A stretch of 64,000 nucleotides of DNA. Origin: Herminiimonas contaminans (GTDB lineage: Bacteria > Pseudomonadota > Gammaproteobacteria > Burkholderiales > Burkholderiaceae_D). The notes below the pieces were generated by a model, which was given only the letters and a program-made list of their open reading frames with translations, was not told the origin of the DNA and searched no databases. Every line of letters starts with the position of its first letter. The first letter of the stretch is position 1. A program made the translations under genes and the position numbers. The stretch is taken from contig NZ_JADOEL010000014.1 in the NCBI RefSeq assembly GCF_015645465.1, positions 1 through 64,000 of the forward strand. Reading direction: 5' to 3'. Of this stretch, positions 15,906-22,578 are shown piece after piece.

Positions 15906-17570
15906 TCAGCTTTGCAAGGTGATTTGCAGCACCTTGATGCGGTAATTCAGTTGCCGCAAGGTCAACCCCAATATTTGTGCCGCGCGTGATTTATTGCCGC
16001 CGCATTCGGTCAGCGCCGACACAATCTGCTCGACCTCATCGCCGCGCACTGCCTGATTGGTCCGTACCGAGCGGGTCACTGTATTGGTTCCGGCAGCGAC
16101 TGTCATGCTCGACAACACAGCATCCACGGCACGCTCCGACTCCAGTACCCGGCTGACATCCGCGGCTTCGATTTCGGGTTGTTCGGCCAGCAGGACCAGG
16201 CGTTCGATAATGTTTTGCAGTTGACGGATGTTGCCAGGCCAGGGGAAACGTATCAGTTGTTCCATCGCGCCCGGCGTCAGGGTGGCATGGCGCTGGAAGG
16301 TATCGTTGGCCAGGCTGATGAAATGACGCGCCAGCGCAGGAATATCTTCAGCCCGCGCACGCAGCGCCGGTAGTTTAACCGGCACCACATTCAAACGATA
16401 GAACAAGTCGAGCCGGAAGCGTCCACTCGCCACCAACTGCTGCAAGTCACGGTTGGTAGCGGCGACTATGCGCACATTCACCGGTATCTCCTTGCGTCCG
16501 CCGACACGCTGGATTTGCTGCTCCTGCAAGGCACGCAGCAACTTGACCTGCAACAACAATGGCAAGTCGCCCACTTCATCCAGGAACAACGTGCCGCCGT
16601 CTGCATCTTCAAAGCGTCCGGGCTTGGCGGCGTGCGCGCCGGTGAACGAACCTTTTTCATGGCCGAACAATTCAGACTCGAACAAGTTCTCCGGAATGGC
16701 ACCGCAATTCACTTTGATGAAAGGTGCATCGCGCCGGTCACTTGCCATATGCAAGGCACGCGCAAACAATTCCTTGCCGGTACCTGATTCGCCCAACAGC
16801 AATACGGTAGCCACCGTATTCGCCACCTGCGTGATCTGACGCAAGGCTGCGCGTGACGCCACCGACTCGCCTATGATGCCGCCGTGCTGCGCCTGCTTGC
16901 CCAGCGCCTTCTTCAGTTCACGGTTCTCAACTGTCAACGCCGCAGTACGCCGCTCGACTTGCTCGTTCACCAAATGTTCTATGCGCAGCAACTGCGCAAT
17001 CTGCGCTGCCACCAGACGCACAGTCACCAGATCGTCACTGAGCGGACGATGCAAACCGCGAAAGCGATTTACTGCCAGCACACCACGCACCGTACCGTTG
17101 ACGATGATGGGCAAGGCAAACATGGAGATCGTTCCCTTAGGCAGCGTATCGCGATCTACCGTGCGCGCCAGGTAATTGGGTTCGGTATCAATATCCTGAA
17201 TGATCGCCACTTCGCCCGACTGGAACACTTTGCCTGTAATCCCCTCGCCGGGACGAAACACGCCGCGCTTGATCTCCTCTTCATCCAGCCCGTATGAATA
17301 GCGAATCACCAGACGCTGCTTTTGCGCATCGAATAAAAACAAACGGCCACGATTCAAGCCGAGGAATTCGGATAACAGGTGCAACATATTGCGTATCGCA
17401 AAAGCCGGATCCAGGCTCTTGCCTATCAGCTTCGATATCTCTCGCGTCACAAAGAGCTGTGTCTCCGACCAGTCGACGATGCCATGTACATTCTTCGACA
17501 GCTCTGCCTGTGCCGTCGAATGCAAATACGGCCGGATTCCTGTACTGAATTCCTTGCTCTTCATTTCCAT
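15906..17570 (-). CDS. NifA-like sigma54-dependent activator (GAF-AAA+-Fis)
   Basis: 554-aa enhancer-binding protein. Domains in order: GAF sensor (about 45-190), a short coiled linker, AAA+ sigma54-interaction domain with GESGTGKE Walker A, GSFTGA loop (Ser variant of GAFTGA) and the [13 protein letters not shown] Walker B region, then a C-terminal Fis-type helix-turn-helix. ATG 17570 is preceded by AAGAGG at good spacing; the open frame continues to 17798 but has no start signal and would cover the palindrome at 17796-17825. It is divergent from an ABC importer/nitrilase operon that has a -24/-12 promoter, so it is the likely activator of that operon, with the GAF domain sensing an unknown effector. 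NifA resemblance is architectural; no nif genes are near. Confidence 0.9.
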
Positions 17571-17795
17571 ACTCAACCTCTTATCGACATCCCGGACATT
17601 GTGTAAGCAATGTCCCTGCCATGTACCAAGCTGCGGTTTACCTTCTTGCTTGCTTGTTTTTGAGCAATACGCATGTGCCATATGCACGGTCTTCGCGCAT
17701 ACGCCCTGCTGCAACAATTTAATGCGCCAAAGCGAGGCGTAGCAAAAACACAATTCCATCAGTATTTGGCCGAGGAAAAAGAAACAGGGACAGGT

Positions 17796-17825
17796 CATCT
17801 TGTTAACAATTTGGTTAACAAGATG
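17796..17825. promoter_or_regulatory. 30-bp palindrome, candidate activator binding site
   Basis: Perfect 12-bp arms CATCTTGTTAAC and GTTAACAAGATG are separated by 6 bp. It lies about 200 bp upstream of the sigma54 promoter at 18014, the usual distance for an upstream activating sequence, and about 225 bp upstream of the activator gene start. The inner TGT...ACA spacing is 14 bp, not the 10 bp of the classical NifA site, so the recognition sequence is probably specific to this regulator. Confidence 0.6.
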
Positions 17826-18013: not shown

Positions 18014-18030
18014 CTGGCATATCAATTGCG
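18014..18030 (+). promoter_or_regulatory. Sigma54 (-24/-12) promoter of the importer-nitrilase operon
   Basis: The sequence CTGGCATATCAATTGCG matches the consensus TGGCAC-N5-TTGC with GG and GC exactly 12 bp apart. The predicted start of transcription is near 18041, about 80 bp before the first gene. The divergent sigma54 activator supports it. Confidence 0.75.
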
Positions 18031-18121
18031 TTAAGGAACATAACTCGATGTCATGTTGAGACAAATGTGTACGCAAATCTGCATGCCTGGACTAGCAGCG
18101 TTTTATAAGGAAACCAGAAAC

Positions 18122-18940
18122 ATGAATTCAGTCGTTGATTTTTCCTTGCACAGCTACCGCGACGATGCCGCGCCGGAAGCCACTGCACGGCCGCACATTA
18201 CAGTGCGCGGCCTGAGCAAATCATTTGGCGGTGCGCCGGTATATTCCGATTTCAATCTCGACTTTCCGAAAGGTCGTGTGACCTGTGTCTTCGGCCCCAA
18301 CGGTTGCGGCAAGTCGACGCTGATCAATATGATCGCTGGTCTGATTCCATACGACGACGGCGACATCCTGTTCGACGGCAAAACCCTGCAGCAAACCACC
18401 ATCGGCTATGTATTCCAGAACTACCGCGAAGCGTTGTTCCCGTGGATGCGTGCGATAGACAACATCAAATATCCACTCGTCATCAAGGGCATGAGCAAGG
18501 CCGATTGCGACGCGCGAGTCGAAGAACTGATCGCGTCCTTCGACGTGAAGTTTGATTTGAATCGTTACCCGTATGAATTCTCCGGCGGCCAGCAGCAGTT
18601 GATTTCCATCATGCGTGCATTGGCACCGCATCCTGAAGTGCTGTTCCTCGATGAACCCTTCTCAGCGCTCGACTATGAAATGACTCTCTTCATACGGGAG
18701 AAGCTGCAGGAAATTTTTCACACCACCGGCGTCACCATGATCGTCGTTTCGCATGACCTGGAAGAAGCGGTCTACCTCGCCGATCATGTCTTGCTGTTGA
18801 CCAAACGACCGACCCGGGTTGCCGACACGGTGCGCTTCGATGCGCCGCGTCCGCGCGATATCGCCACCCTTTCCAGTGCTGCTTTTGTGCAAACCAAGGC
18901 GCGCTGCCTGGACATCTTCCAACGCGAGGTGCGCAAATGA
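18122..18940 (+). CDS. ABC importer ATPase (SsuB/TauB/NrtD type)
   Basis: 272-aa nucleotide-binding subunit. The Walker A FGPNGCGKSTL, the Q-loop in YVFQNYREALFPW, signature SGGQQQL and Walker B VLFLDEPFSALD are intact. ATG 18122 has an AAGGA upstream; the longer frame to 18053 runs into the promoter leader. The ATG of the permease overlaps its stop codon. Together with the permease, binding protein and nitrilase it forms a likely nitrile, amide or related N-compound uptake and hydrolysis operon. Confidence 0.9.
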   Translation: MNSVVDFSLHSYRDDAAPEATARPHITVRGLSKSFGGAPVYSDFNLDFPKGRVTCVFGPNGCGKSTLINMIAGLIPYDDGDILFDGKTLQQTTIGYVFQNYREALFPWMRAIDNIKYPLVIKGMSKADCDARVEELIASFDVKFDLNRYPYEFSGGQQQLISIMRALAPHPEVLFLDEPFSALDYEMTLFIREKLQEIFHTTGVTMIVVSHDLEEAVYLADHVLLLTKRPTRVADTVRFDAPRPRDIATLSSAAFVQTKARCLDIFQREVRK

Positions 18941-19722
18941 AAAGCACACAATACCCACCCTTCATGAACAACAGCATGCGCGTCGGCCGCAGCCTGATCG
19001 GGCCGGTCGCATTGATAGCGGTCTGGTGGATCGCCAATGATTCGGCATGGGTCAGCAACAAACTGCTGCCGAATCCATTCGCCACTTTCGGCTCCCTATG
19101 GGACAGCCTGGTCTCTGGCTCCATGACCAAAGACCTGGCAGCAACGCTGTATCGCACGCTGTATGCATTTGGCCTGGCCGCCCTGTTCGGTATCCCGGCC
19201 GGGATCGCGCTCGGTTCGAATGACCGTATTTATCGCTCGATTGAATCGCTGGTCGACTTCTTCCGCTCGACGCCAGCCACTGCCATGTTCCCGCTCTTCC
19301 TGCTGATCTTTGGCATCGGTGATTTCGCCAAGATCGCGGTCGCCGGTTTCTCCGCCTGGCTGGTGGTGCTGTTCAACGTGGCCTATGGCGTCATGAACTC
19401 GCGCAAGACGCGCATCCTCGCAGCACGCGTAATGGGTGCTTCGAAATGGCGTGTATTCCGCGACGTGCTGTTCTTTGAATCGCTGCCACAAACCTTTGTC
19501 GGCCTGCGCATGGCAGTTTCGCTGGCGCTGGTCGTCATCATCGTGGCCGAGATGTTCATCGGCTCGATGGATGGCATGGGCCATCGCATCATCGATGCAC
19601 AGCAGGTATTCGATCTGCAGCAAATGTATGCCTCCATCCTGATGACCGGCGGCGTCGGTTACGGCTTCAATCTTTTATTCATCGCACTCGAGAAATGGGT
19701 AGTGCATTGGGCAGGTCGCTAA
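18937..19722 (+). CDS. ABC importer permease (SsuC/TauC/NrtB type)
   Basis: 261-aa inner-membrane permease with about six hydrophobic segments. The cytoplasmic EAA-like loop is visible around AARVMGASKWRVFRDVLF. It overlaps the ATPase gene by four bases (ATGA), a sign of coupled translation. Confidence 0.9.
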   Translation: MKSTQYPPFMNNSMRVGRSLIGPVALIAVWWIANDSAWVSNKLLPNPFATFGSLWDSLVSGSMTKDLAATLYRTLYAFGLAALFGIPAGIALGSNDRIYRSIESLVDFFRSTPATAMFPLFLLIFGIGDFAKIAVAGFSAWLVVLFNVAYGVMNSRKTRILAARVMGASKWRVFRDVLFFESLPQTFVGLRMAVSLALVVIIVAEMFIGSMDGMGHRIIDAQQVFDLQQMYASILMTGGVGYGFNLLFIALEKWVVHWAGR

Positions 19723-19748: not shown

Positions 19749-20732
19749 ATGAAAAAGTTCGTCTTGGCATCTATCGTCGGAACCCTGCTGCTGAATTCAT
19801 CGCTCGCACTGGCACAGGAAAAAATGGAAAAGGTCACTGCGTCGTGGTTGCCCATCATGCAAACCATGGCTTACTACGTGGCACTGGAAGAGAAGCTGTT
19901 TGAAAAGGCCGGGATAGAAATTAACTCAGTTAAATTCCAGAACCCGAACCAGATCATCGATTCACTGGTGTCCGGCCAGGCTGACTTCGGACCACCAGGT
20001 GCGGCAGCCGGTATCACGGCGCTGGCTGAATCGCGCTATCCGGGTACTTTCAAAGTCTTTGGCCTGCAAGGTGGTGGCATCAAGGTAGGCATGATCAATG
20101 ATGGCCTGATCGTTTCGAATGCATCGACCATTTCCTCGTTCAAGGATCTCAAGGGCAAGAGCATAGGCACCCTGCCCGGCATCCAGTGGAAAACCATCAC
20201 GCGCTACATCCTGCGTCAAAACGGCCTGGACCCGGACAAGGATGTGCGCATCAATGAAATCGCCGTGCCTATGCACATTCCATCCGTGGTTGCCGGTACT
20301 GTCGATGCCACACTGTCGCTGGAACCGGTAGGTTCGATCGCCATCGCATCGAAAGAGGCCCGACGTGCGATGACAAATCCGGTCGCCACCTTCATCGCTG
20401 ATCCTTTCTACTCCGGCGTCTCGGTACTCTCGACCAAGTTCATGAAAGAGCGTCCGGAAGTCGCGAAGAAAGTCGTCGCCGTGCTGGACCAGGCGACCAA
20501 GATGGCGAATGAAAACTTCGACAAATACCGTCCCATCATCGCCAAGTACACTGCAATCCAGCCTGACCAGGTGCAATACGTCGCGCAACCCTATCTGCGC
20601 GCCAACAAGGATTTGACTGCCAACGATGTGAAGTCGTATCAGGCGCTGGTCAATGTATTTGAAAAAGAAGGCGTGCTGAAAGAACACATGGATATACAAA
20701 AAATCATGTTGAAGCCCACTGACCTTAAATAA
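19749..20732 (+). CDS. ABC importer periplasmic binding protein (SsuA/NrtA/TauA family)
   Basis: 327-aa secreted binding protein with a clear signal peptide (MKKFVLASIVG...ALAQ, cleavage after ALA). The fold markers of the NMT1/SsuA-like family follow (ASWLPIMQTMAYYVALEEKLF near the N-terminus, SGQADFGPPGAAAG). The ligand is unknown; the nitrilase encoded 150 bp downstream suggests a nitrile, amide or ureido compound. A TGGAGAA ribosome-binding site precedes ATG 19749. Confidence 0.88.
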   Translation: MKKFVLASIVGTLLLNSSLALAQEKMEKVTASWLPIMQTMAYYVALEEKLFEKAGIEINSVKFQNPNQIIDSLVSGQADFGPPGAAAGITALAESRYPGTFKVFGLQGGGIKVGMINDGLIVSNASTISSFKDLKGKSIGTLPGIQWKTITRYILRQNGLDPDKDVRINEIAVPMHIPSVVAGTVDATLSLEPVGSIAIASKEARRAMTNPVATFIADPFYSGVSVLSTKFMKERPEVAKKVVAVLDQATKMANENFDKYRPIIAKYTAIQPDQVQYVAQPYLRANKDLTANDVKSYQALVNVFEKEGVLKEHMDIQKIMLKPTDLK

Positions 20733-20880: not shown

Positions 20881-22578
20881 ATGGCAACAGCACCATTCCG
20901 CGCAGCAGTCGTCCAAACCCTGGCCGCACTCGGCGATCTCGATATCAACATCGGCCTCTTGCGTCGTTACACCGAGGAAGCAGTCCGTCAGGGCGCACGC
21001 CTGGTGGTCTTCCCTGAATGCATGAATACCGGCTACCTGTTCGACTCTGCCGAGCACTGCGCCGAGCTGGCAGAAACAGTCGATGGCCGCTTCGTGCAGG
21101 CGATGGCTGACCTGTGCCGCGAACACAACATCTTCATCGCCAGCGGCTTTACCGAAATGAATGAAGAGAAAAACAAAATCTTTAACACCGGTTTGCTGCT
21201 GGACCCGAAAGGCGACATCATCGTCCACTACCACAAGCAATTCCTCGCCACACATGACCAGAACTGGTTCGAGCTCGGTGAAAACGGCTGCCCGGTGGTC
21301 GATACGGAACTGGGACGCATAGGCTTGCTGATCTGCTTCGATGGCCGCATTCCCGAGATCACACGCAACCTCGCACTGCAAGGTGCCGAAGTTATCGTCG
21401 ACATGGCCAACTTCTTTGCGATGGACCAGGCCGATATGTGGGTACCGGCACGCGCTTATGAAAACGGCGTCTGGTTTGTTGCCGCCACCAAGGCGGGTGT
21501 GGAGCGCAGCATCTACTATCCCGGCGGCAGCATGATAGTCGCGCCCGGCGGTGAAGTCGTCGCCAAAATCCCGTACGACACGCACGGTGTGGTAACAGCC
21601 GAAATCGATACCAGCAAAGCGCAAAACAAATCCTGGCACCATGAAGGTGATCGCATGCTGGATCGTCGCCCTGACCTGTACGGCATCATAGGCAAGCCGG
21701 TCAGCGATACCCCACTGGCAGCAATACTCGCACAGCCCCTCGTTCCAGAACAAAGTGTGGCCAAGGCAGCAGCGGTGCAAATCCATGCGACCAGTGCCGC
21801 CGACAGCTTGCACGACGCCTACGAAATGATAGATCACACCGCCAAGCTCGGCGTCAAAGTCATCGTCTTGCCGCAGTTCTTCGCCTCCTCCAGCTGGCTG
21901 CCCAGCCTGGCCGAAGCGCATCTTGCAGCGAGCCAGAGCGAAGCGACTATCCAGCGCGTCGCGACCATCGCCAAACGCTACGCTTGCGTCATCGTGCTGC
22001 CCCTGCTGGAAAAACGTCAGGACAAGATCGCGTCAACAGCTGTCGTCATCGGACCGGATGGCGAACTGATCGGTCGCTACCAGCAATGCCATGTCGAGCC
22101 TGAAATGAAATCGTGGTGTGTCGCTGGCAGCACCTTGTCGGTCTTTGATACACCGTTTGGCCGACTCGGCGTCATCCTCGGTTACGACGGCATGTTCCCG
22201 GAAGCAACGCGGGTACTGGCGCTGCAAGGCGCAGACATGATCGCGTGGTGCAGCGCATGGCGTCGCCCGCAAGACCGCGCGCTGCTGACCGTACCCAAGG
22301 CGGAAGACAATCGCATCTTCCTGATTGCCGCCAACCGCAGCGACGCTCCGTATCCTGGTGGCTCCTTCATCGTGCCGCCGAATGGCTTCCCGCTATGGAA
22401 CCTGGATGTCGTTGCCCCTGCGACGAATCGTCACGGCGCAGTGATGCCTGGCTTTATGAACCTGGCACTGAGTCGTCAGAAATTCATGATCCCGAAAGTG
22501 AATATGCTGCGCAATCGCATCATCGCCAGCTACACGCCTATCACTGCCACCGCAGCTGCGCATGAACTGGCCGCCTGA
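20881..22578 (+). CDS. Tandem nitrilase-superfamily hydrolase with degenerate second domain
   Basis: 565-aa fusion of two carbon-nitrogen hydrolase domains (about 5-270 and 295-555). The first has the full Glu-Lys-Cys triad: Glu46 in VFPECMN, Lys119 in HYHKQFL and Cys152 in LLICFDGRIPE. In the second the aligned positions are Gln332 (VLPQFF), Gln402 (RYQQCH) and Gly434 (VILGYDGMFPE), so it should be catalytically dead and may serve as a structural or regulatory half of an internal pseudo-dimer. It is the last gene of the sigma54 importer operon, preceded by GAAGGAG and followed by a strong terminator. It hydrolyses a C-N bond (nitrile, amide or carbamoyl); the exact substrate is unknown. Confidence 0.9.
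   Translation: MATAPFRAAVVQTLAALGDLDINIGLLRRYTEEAVRQGARLVVFPECMNTGYLFDSAEHCAELAETVDGRFVQAMADLCREHNIFIASGFTEMNEEKNKIFNTGLLLDPKGDIIVHYHKQFLATHDQNWFELGENGCPVVDTELGRIGLLICFDGRIPEITRNLALQGAEVIVDMANFFAMDQADMWVPARAYENGVWFVAATKAGVERSIYYPGGSMIVAPGGEVVAKIPYDTHGVVTAEIDTSKAQNKSWHHEGDRMLDRRPDLYGIIGKPVSDTPLAAILAQPLVPEQSVAKAAAVQIHATSAADSLHDAYEMIDHTAKLGVKVIVLPQFFASSSWLPSLAEAHLAASQSEATIQRVATIAKRYACVIVLPLLEKRQDKIASTAVVIGPDGELIGRYQQCHVEPEMKSWCVAGSTLSVFDTPFGRLGVILGYDGMFPEATRVLALQGADMIAWCSAWRRPQDRALLTVPKAEDNRIFLIAANRSDAPYPGGSFIVPPNGFPLWNLDVVAPATNRHGAVMPGFMNLALSRQKFMIPKVNMLRNRIIASYTPITATAAAHELAA

Follow-up and report, generated by a model that had tools for sequence, protein, structure and literature searches.

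The gene at 20881..22578 of the window, by which we mean the whole 64,000-nucleotide stretch of Herminiimonas contaminans DNA that was analysed, codes for a tandem nitrilase with one predicted catalytic half and one half that lacks the nucleophile. The initial annotation had described a fusion whose second domain (D2) lost Glu, Lys and Cys, next to an intact first domain (D1). The finding is real and wider than that description: the protein is best read as an old one-working-half nitrilase, a pair of an enzyme and its dead partner. The features of the gene were assigned as follows.

20881..22578, + strand: tandem nitrilase gene, an open frame of 565 aa with two PF00795 stretches and ABC genes upstream
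20899..21624, + strand: D1, CN_hydrolase domain, predicted catalytic
21016..21018, + strand: E46 codon of D1 (alignment)
21235..21237, + strand: K119 codon of D1 (alignment)
21256..21258, + strand: D126 codon of D1, where the superfamily has its second glutamate (matched to Glu of 1j31)
21334..21336, + strand: C152 codon of D1, nucleophile (alignment)
21763..22386, + strand: D2, CN_hydrolase pseudo-domain without nucleophile
21874..21876, + strand: Q332 codon, Glu site of D2 (alignment)
22084..22086, + strand: Q402 codon, Lys site of D2 (alignment)
22180..22182, + strand: G434 codon, Cys site of D2 (alignment)
22396..22578, + strand: C-terminal tail, residues 506-565, with conserved RQKxMIPxV (alignments; pLDDT at least 80 up to residue 550)

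A Pfam search with the 565-aa protein returned CN_hydrolase alone, and the PF00795 cut-off of 23.2 bits was exceeded by both D1 (182.7 bits) and D2 (95.9 bits). The triad that had been assigned to D1 (E46, K119 and C152) was confirmed at the aligned sites. At the corresponding sites of D2 the alignment placed Q332, Q402 and G434, at the coordinates originally given, and the segments described as well kept, YDGMFPE (435-441) and ALQGAD (447-452), are both present. Of the named relatives, the closest is contig L008 from Herminiimonas (97% over the best segment).

In the window's family (family A, 47 sequences), D1 held Glu, Lys and Cys in every row. The Cys site of D2 held no Cys in any of them (G in 43, D in 4), and its Glu and Lys sites held Glu and Lys in 30 rows each. 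Loss of Cys from D2 is universal in this set, and the triple loss is confined to the window's branch. When 53 loci, drawn from 55 relative loci by leaving out L061 and L062, were aligned with the window, the D2 Cys site was G in 50 and D in 3 of the 53 filled rows, one of which (L059) is frameshifted around this site; Cys was never found. A mixed set of 29 tandems had Cys in D1 (29/29) and none in D2 (25 G, 4 D), and it was present in 26 of 26 single-domain proteins compared beside them. Seven tandems found later, three of them alike and one (L139) hard to align, had Cys in all seven D1 and in no D2 (G in 6, A in 1), and the ten single-domain proteins compared with these all had it. The Cys site was scored without many of the fetched loci, which are also absent from the trees, among them L102, L108, L109, L111, L120-L122, L124-L129, L131-L133, L143 and L145. 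A catalytic Cys at another place in D2 was also considered. The commonest D2 Cys column (C369, 42 of 47 family-A rows) lies just before a core strand, away from the nucleophile elbow, and was rejected as a candidate. Homologues with an intact second triad at shifted positions had been named as evidence that would speak against the initial annotation; no shifted Cys was found in the 47 family-A sequences.

Judged from its sequence, D2 is a homologous fold and not an enzyme of the Cys-dependent nitrilase mechanism. It might instead catalyse some unrecognised reaction in which Gly occupies the elbow and different residues do the work; H404, E441, R444 and N477 of D2 are indeed invariant in the 18 tandems of alignment A3. 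We regard this as highly improbable, since three of these residues (E441, R444 and N477) match the invariant D1 residues E159, R162 and N195, and D2 has no invariant Cys across the 47 family-A rows.

The Q/Q/G state of D2 was rejected as a conserved state. In the 60-tandem tree, the combinations at the Glu, Lys and Cys sites were E-K-G (37), Q-Q-G (8), E-Q-G (6), L-Q-G (3), L-Q-D (2) and four others with one each, where the counts are of sequences and include many closely related ones from Bradyrhizobium and Rhodopseudomonas. Q/Q/G is a late state of one branch, and 37 of the 60 tandems lack Cys alone. The minimum number of changes on this tree was three for Glu, four for Lys and one for the Cys site (Gly to Asp). 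The distribution of states and these fewest changes point to a loss order in D2 of Cys, then Lys, then Glu; L023 (D-K-G) is an exception, in which Glu changed with Lys still present. On this reconstruction, Lys and Glu were lost later, in the window's branch. Two metagenome tandem copies, L059:6001-7678 and L028:6001-7659, contain internal stops, and the L059 frame is also lost, which may reflect sequencing error or decay.

Selection on the two halves was compared by dN/dS in 18 chosen pairs, several of which had dS above 1. The ratio was 0.034-0.247 in D2 and 0.016-0.099 in D1. D2 is under purifying selection. It was faster than D1 in 15 of the 18 pairs, which counts against the dead-partner reading. 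A second domain that is not conserved had been named as a further ground for doubt, and here D2 is kept across phyla at these dN/dS values. The initial annotation had proposed that loss of all three residues reflects a selected non-catalytic role. What stands of this proposal is a selected D2 without a nucleophile, in view of its retention across phyla, its dN/dS and the lack of Cys there in any tandem examined; Q/Q/G as the selected state does not stand. The same data bear on the view that D2 is a spacer or relic kept for solubility only, with a sequence of little importance. Such a view would accommodate the weakly conserved stretch at residues 325-420 (blocks of entropy 1.1-2.2) and the limitation of Q/Q/G to one branch. 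We consider it improbable, because D2 with the same defect was retained across phyla under the dN/dS given above, and because the sole unbroken single-domain match among the 55 relative loci was the distant L061 (32%).

Mean entropy was 0.81 for D1, 1.24 for D2 and 1.07 for residues 506-555, in an alignment made without L028, L052, L053, L055 and L057-L062; alignment A1 comprised 36 of the 55 relative loci. For the regional entropies, the family-A rows were split by the D2 Lys into 30 rows that kept it and 17 that lost it, and the pocket positions were chosen by us from D1. In the Lys-kept and Lys-lost rows, respectively, the pocket values were 0.00 and 0.03 in D1 against 0.47 and 1.15 in D2, and those for the rest of the domain were 0.36 and 0.72 in D1 against 0.74 and 1.28 in D2. 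The helix at 183-199 gave 0.16 and 0.45 in D1 against 0.17 and 0.57 in the aligned part of D2, and the helix at 156-169 gave 0.24 and 0.37 against 0.38 and 0.66. The D2 helix equivalent to 183-199, after the Cys site, is conserved like that of D1; the D2 pocket is not. The helices that follow the Cys site (156-169 and 183-199) would, as we take it, make up the dimer face of nitrilases.

These values also bear on a regulatory D2, in which the nucleophile-free pocket would bind the substrate, the product or another nitrogen signal and control D1. By the regional entropies, conservation within D2 is higher in the pocket than elsewhere in the Lys-kept rows, and barely higher in the Lys-lost rows. 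The former rows, with Gly at the Cys site, hold Glu in 29/30, Lys in 30/30 and the second Glu in 29/30, and N485, R486, D488 and YPGGS are highly conserved elements of D2, all of which suits a ligand-binding regulator. Retention of both Glu and Lys in D2 of 37/60 tandems (many of them close kin) also argues against a pure scaffold, which would not need both. On the other side, the D2 pocket is much less conserved than the D1 pocket, and the window's branch has lost Lys and Glu from it. We therefore hold a regulatory D2 to be rather unlikely. A substrate gate or ligand sensor is conceivable, above all in the E-K-G branch.

The whole protein was modelled with AlphaFold2 (pLDDT 92.5, pTM 0.92). 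D1 was packed on D2 in the model, and the pTM value indicates that this packing of the two halves is predicted with confidence. Structure prediction had been suggested as a check, and the packing together with the location of conservation in D2 favours the pseudo-dimer among the roles first proposed. In VIA-align comparisons with chains carrying extended tails (2plq, 2uxy, 4lf0, 5g3p, 2e2l and 2dyu), 278-290 residues were aligned and the model ranges ran from 2-5 to 539-540. These range ends, which are what the comparison gives, are as expected if the swapped tail falls on D2, and hint weakly at such an arrangement. PMC4700190 states that all known functional members of the nitrilase superfamily have an underlying dimer; the same paper names one solved member without that dimer, 3ILV, which counts against the dead-partner reading. 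We infer that D1 and D2 would meet in the canonical dimer geometry, across the A-surface.

On balance, we consider it likely that the protein is a fused pseudo-heterodimer, in which D1 is the sole catalytic unit and D2 a built-in dead dimer partner, encoded in a transporter-hydrolase operon of sigma54 type that would supply nitrogen from a small nitrile, amide or ureido compound. In this mechanism D1 would be the only catalytic unit, with E46, K119 and C152 acting together with Asp126. D2, an old dead copy, would stand in for the second protomer of the superfamily dimer; packed on D1, it would help to shape or stabilise the D1 active site, help that we infer from the evidence above. The conserved C-terminal tail would probably join D2 in supporting that site. 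The ABC importer, the NifA-like sigma54 activator and the enzyme would provide for uptake and then hydrolysis of the nitrogen source. The contribution of the partner protomer is hard to judge in nitrilase dimers because both protomers are identical. Where nature supplies an enzyme in which one half works and the other is dead, the role of the partner can be tested by mutating the partner alone.

The D1 active site departs from the superfamily pattern at one position. The Glu-Lys-Cys triad is present, and the C-E-E-K tetrad of the superfamily is not, the site of the second glutamate, set by alignment to 1j31, being Asp126. It is Asp in 47/47 family-A rows; across the 60 tandems it is Asp in 47 and Glu in 13. 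PMC6946656 describes the second glutamate as essential in some superfamily members, and a work cited there reports, by its title, that mutating it inactivates an amidase. Since Asp126 lies at that site, the activity of D1 is only predicted. A structure of an E142D mutant (4lf0) exists among the matched chains.

The two halves were placed in trees, all of which were quick, with SH-aLRT as the sole support and with a long-branch warning. In a tree of 84 domains, 29 of 29 D2 lay to the same side of a single branch (SH-aLRT 98). Once the active-site columns had been taken out, D2 were grouped in 28/28 cases (SH-aLRT 96; tree without L003, L106, L113 and both halves of L086) and, in a later tree, in 33/33 (SH-aLRT 97; without L003, L106, L113 and both halves of L066, L135 and L136). 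D1 did not form a single clade in free trees, and a single clade was not rejected (p-AU 0.449). The simplest reading of the trees would be a single ancient fusion whose second half is dead; the grouping of D2 fits this and falls short of proof. More tentatively, and with a somewhat less than even chance of being right in full, tandem nitrilases may be an old and wide lineage in which the homodimer was replaced once by an obligate covalent pseudo-heterodimer. The D2 nucleophile would have been lost with the fusion or soon after, and D2 would be integral to the catalytic site of D1, so that D1 works with Asp for the second glutamate in the window's family. If the single-fusion reading is true, the tandems offer a long-lived pair of enzyme and pseudo-enzyme with a loss order (Cys, Lys, Glu) that is readable on the tree, and also a family of candidate nitrogen-scavenging hydrolases with a defined operon.

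Tandem relatives were seen in Pseudomonadota, Cyanobacteriota, one Actinomycetota MAG and Thermomicrobium. Some of the phylum labels depend on MAGs (L013), and the cyanobacterial label also on named strains. Outside the window's family, tandems without the D2 Cys occur as family B, on replicons of Rhizobium, Agrobacterium, Klebsiella and Thermomicrobium, as a Novosphingobium form (L087) and as the form in L057/L058. Within the window's order, one genome in 150 had a tandem, namely the window's own, and 11 of 398 genomes of its phylum matched most of the tandem model (4 at full length, 7 of family B). The phylum of L013 gave one genome in 246, the seed itself, and the class of G497 gave 7 in 289. 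These genome counts are lower bounds, as E-value limits were strict and at most three to nine candidates were scored per genome. The distribution of tandems is patchy. Among plasmid records with a match, 103 of 205 covered 80% or more of the query at a single location.

Several known systems resemble the tandem in part. Family B (the Rhizobium, Agrobacterium and Klebsiella plasmids and Thermomicrobium) has the same layout, with Cys in D1 and Gly at the Cys site of D2; it shares 26-30% identity with the window's family and, unlike it, keeps the second Glu in D1. Pyrococcus amidase/nitrilase (1j31, 6ypa and 3ivz) is a single domain with no dead partner, and 1j31 and 3ivz have a glutamate at the site of Asp126. 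Two enzymes with extended C-terminal tails, aliphatic amidase and formamidase (2uxy, 2plq, 5g3p and 2dyu), have the same fold, with model ranges from D1 to about residue 540, but are built of single-domain subunits. NitFhit (1ems) and glutamine-dependent NAD synthetase (3n05) carry a nitrilase domain in a fusion, as the window protein does; there the fusion partner has another fold, whereas in the tandem it is again a nitrilase fold. DRT1 differs as a homo-oligomer whose nitrilase domain is described with catalytic residues. Among the matches listed in a search of open-licence literature, no paper dealt with tandem or double nitrilases or with inactive nitrilase domains.

Upstream of the tandem gene, the following features were assigned.

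15906..17570, - strand: NifA-like sigma54 activator, likely start 17570 (TIGR01817 449.9 bits, below the cut-off of 528.85)
17607..17621, - strand: sigma54 promoter-like TGGCAGGGACATTGC, before the regulator (motif in 5/5 aligned loci)
17796..17825, no strand: inverted repeat CATCTTGTTAAC/GTTAACAAGATG, putative activator site (core largely kept in 5 aligned loci)
18015..18029, + strand: sigma54 promoter-like TGGCATATCAATTGC, before the ABC-nitrilase operon (motif in 5/5 aligned loci)
18122..18940, + strand: ABC transporter ATPase (conserved ATG at 18122, not the ORF start at 18053)
18937..19722, + strand: ABC transporter permease (conserved neighbour)
19749..20732, + strand: ABC transporter substrate-binding protein, SsuA-like (TIGR01728 128.4 bits, below the cut-off of 163.5; conserved neighbour)

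The motif before the operon has the sigma54-type form TGGCA-N6-TTGC. The looser TGGC-N7-TTGC occurs 13 times in the window against 5.1 expected, so the evidence for these sites is their conservation. The conserved elements at 17607-17825 point to the later starts of the regulator (17570) and the ATPase (18122). Genes for an ABC ATPase, permease and binding protein lie directly upstream of the tandem gene in 47 of 53 loci; the other six are L052, L053 and L055, which are fragments starting inside the gene, and L057, L058 and L060. The importer genes run in the order ATPase-permease-binding protein in the beta, cyano and actino loci (L008-L018, L020 and L050), and permease-binding protein-ATPase in mostly alpha loci (L019 and L021-L049). 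A divergent NifA-like regulator was found in 7/53 loci, and on a Klebsiella plasmid (L083) a sigma54-interacting regulator is annotated at that position.

Named enzyme families did not account for the protein. Nitrile_Arch NF040852 (240 bits, cut-off 500), N-carbamoylputrescine amidase TIGR03381 (182.9, cut-off 410.25) and formamidase NF009803 (148.1, cut-off 406) were rejected, as was glutamine-dependent NAD synthetase (no synthetase domain in Pfam; PRK13981 67.8 bits, cut-off 479). Among the matches listed, no NCBIfam cut-off was reached for the nitrilase, the transporter or the regulator (for the ATPase, the best 25 of 189 matches; for the regulator, the best 25 of 30).

The neighbourhoods were scanned in 53 loci (L008-L059 and L083), 14 of which have short flanks. 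Nitrile hydratase genes were found in the flanks of seven (L014, L015, L018, L045, L050, L056 and L083), together with an isochorismatase-like hydrolase in all seven, although in L050 this is only a 74-aa match. For the isochorismatase-like enzyme of L083, the nearest solved structures were described as "putative amidases" (6azo, E 2e-72) in one case and as a biuret hydrolase (6xjm, E 4e-70) in the other. Allophanate hydrolase (at least 45% identity) was found in 5/53 loci (L020, L035, L038, L041 and L056). The window's operon contains no nitrile hydratase, isochorismatase-like or allophanate hydrolase gene, and most of the 53 loci are likewise without them, so the substrate class drawn from neighbour genes, small nitrile, amide or ureido nitrogen compounds, is only a guess. 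N-cyano compounds such as dicyandiamide may perhaps be substrates. Dicyandiamide breakdown is said, in PMC11410670, to yield guanylurea. The window's own genome encodes an allophanate hydrolase elsewhere; a search of it for the nitrile hydratase alpha subunit gave no match, and the same search was silent in every control genome too.

On the Klebsiella wastewater plasmid, L083:2277-15563 carries a regulator-ABC-tandem nitrilase unit, a second ABC system, nitrile hydratase and the biuret-hydrolase-like enzyme, and adjoins a recombinase and a transposase; it is possibly a mobile nitrogen-source island. Family B loci on Klebsiella, Agrobacterium and Rhizobium plasmids (L084, L085 and L088) stand next to genes for a urea-type ABC system, for an ANTAR regulator and for a substrate-binding-domain protein; L086 does not lie beside urea-type ABC and ANTAR genes. 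In the window's own genome (C1, L147:3184-9441), a further nitrilase is encoded near an allophanate hydrolase gene, as are an enolase-superfamily protein and a lactate permease.
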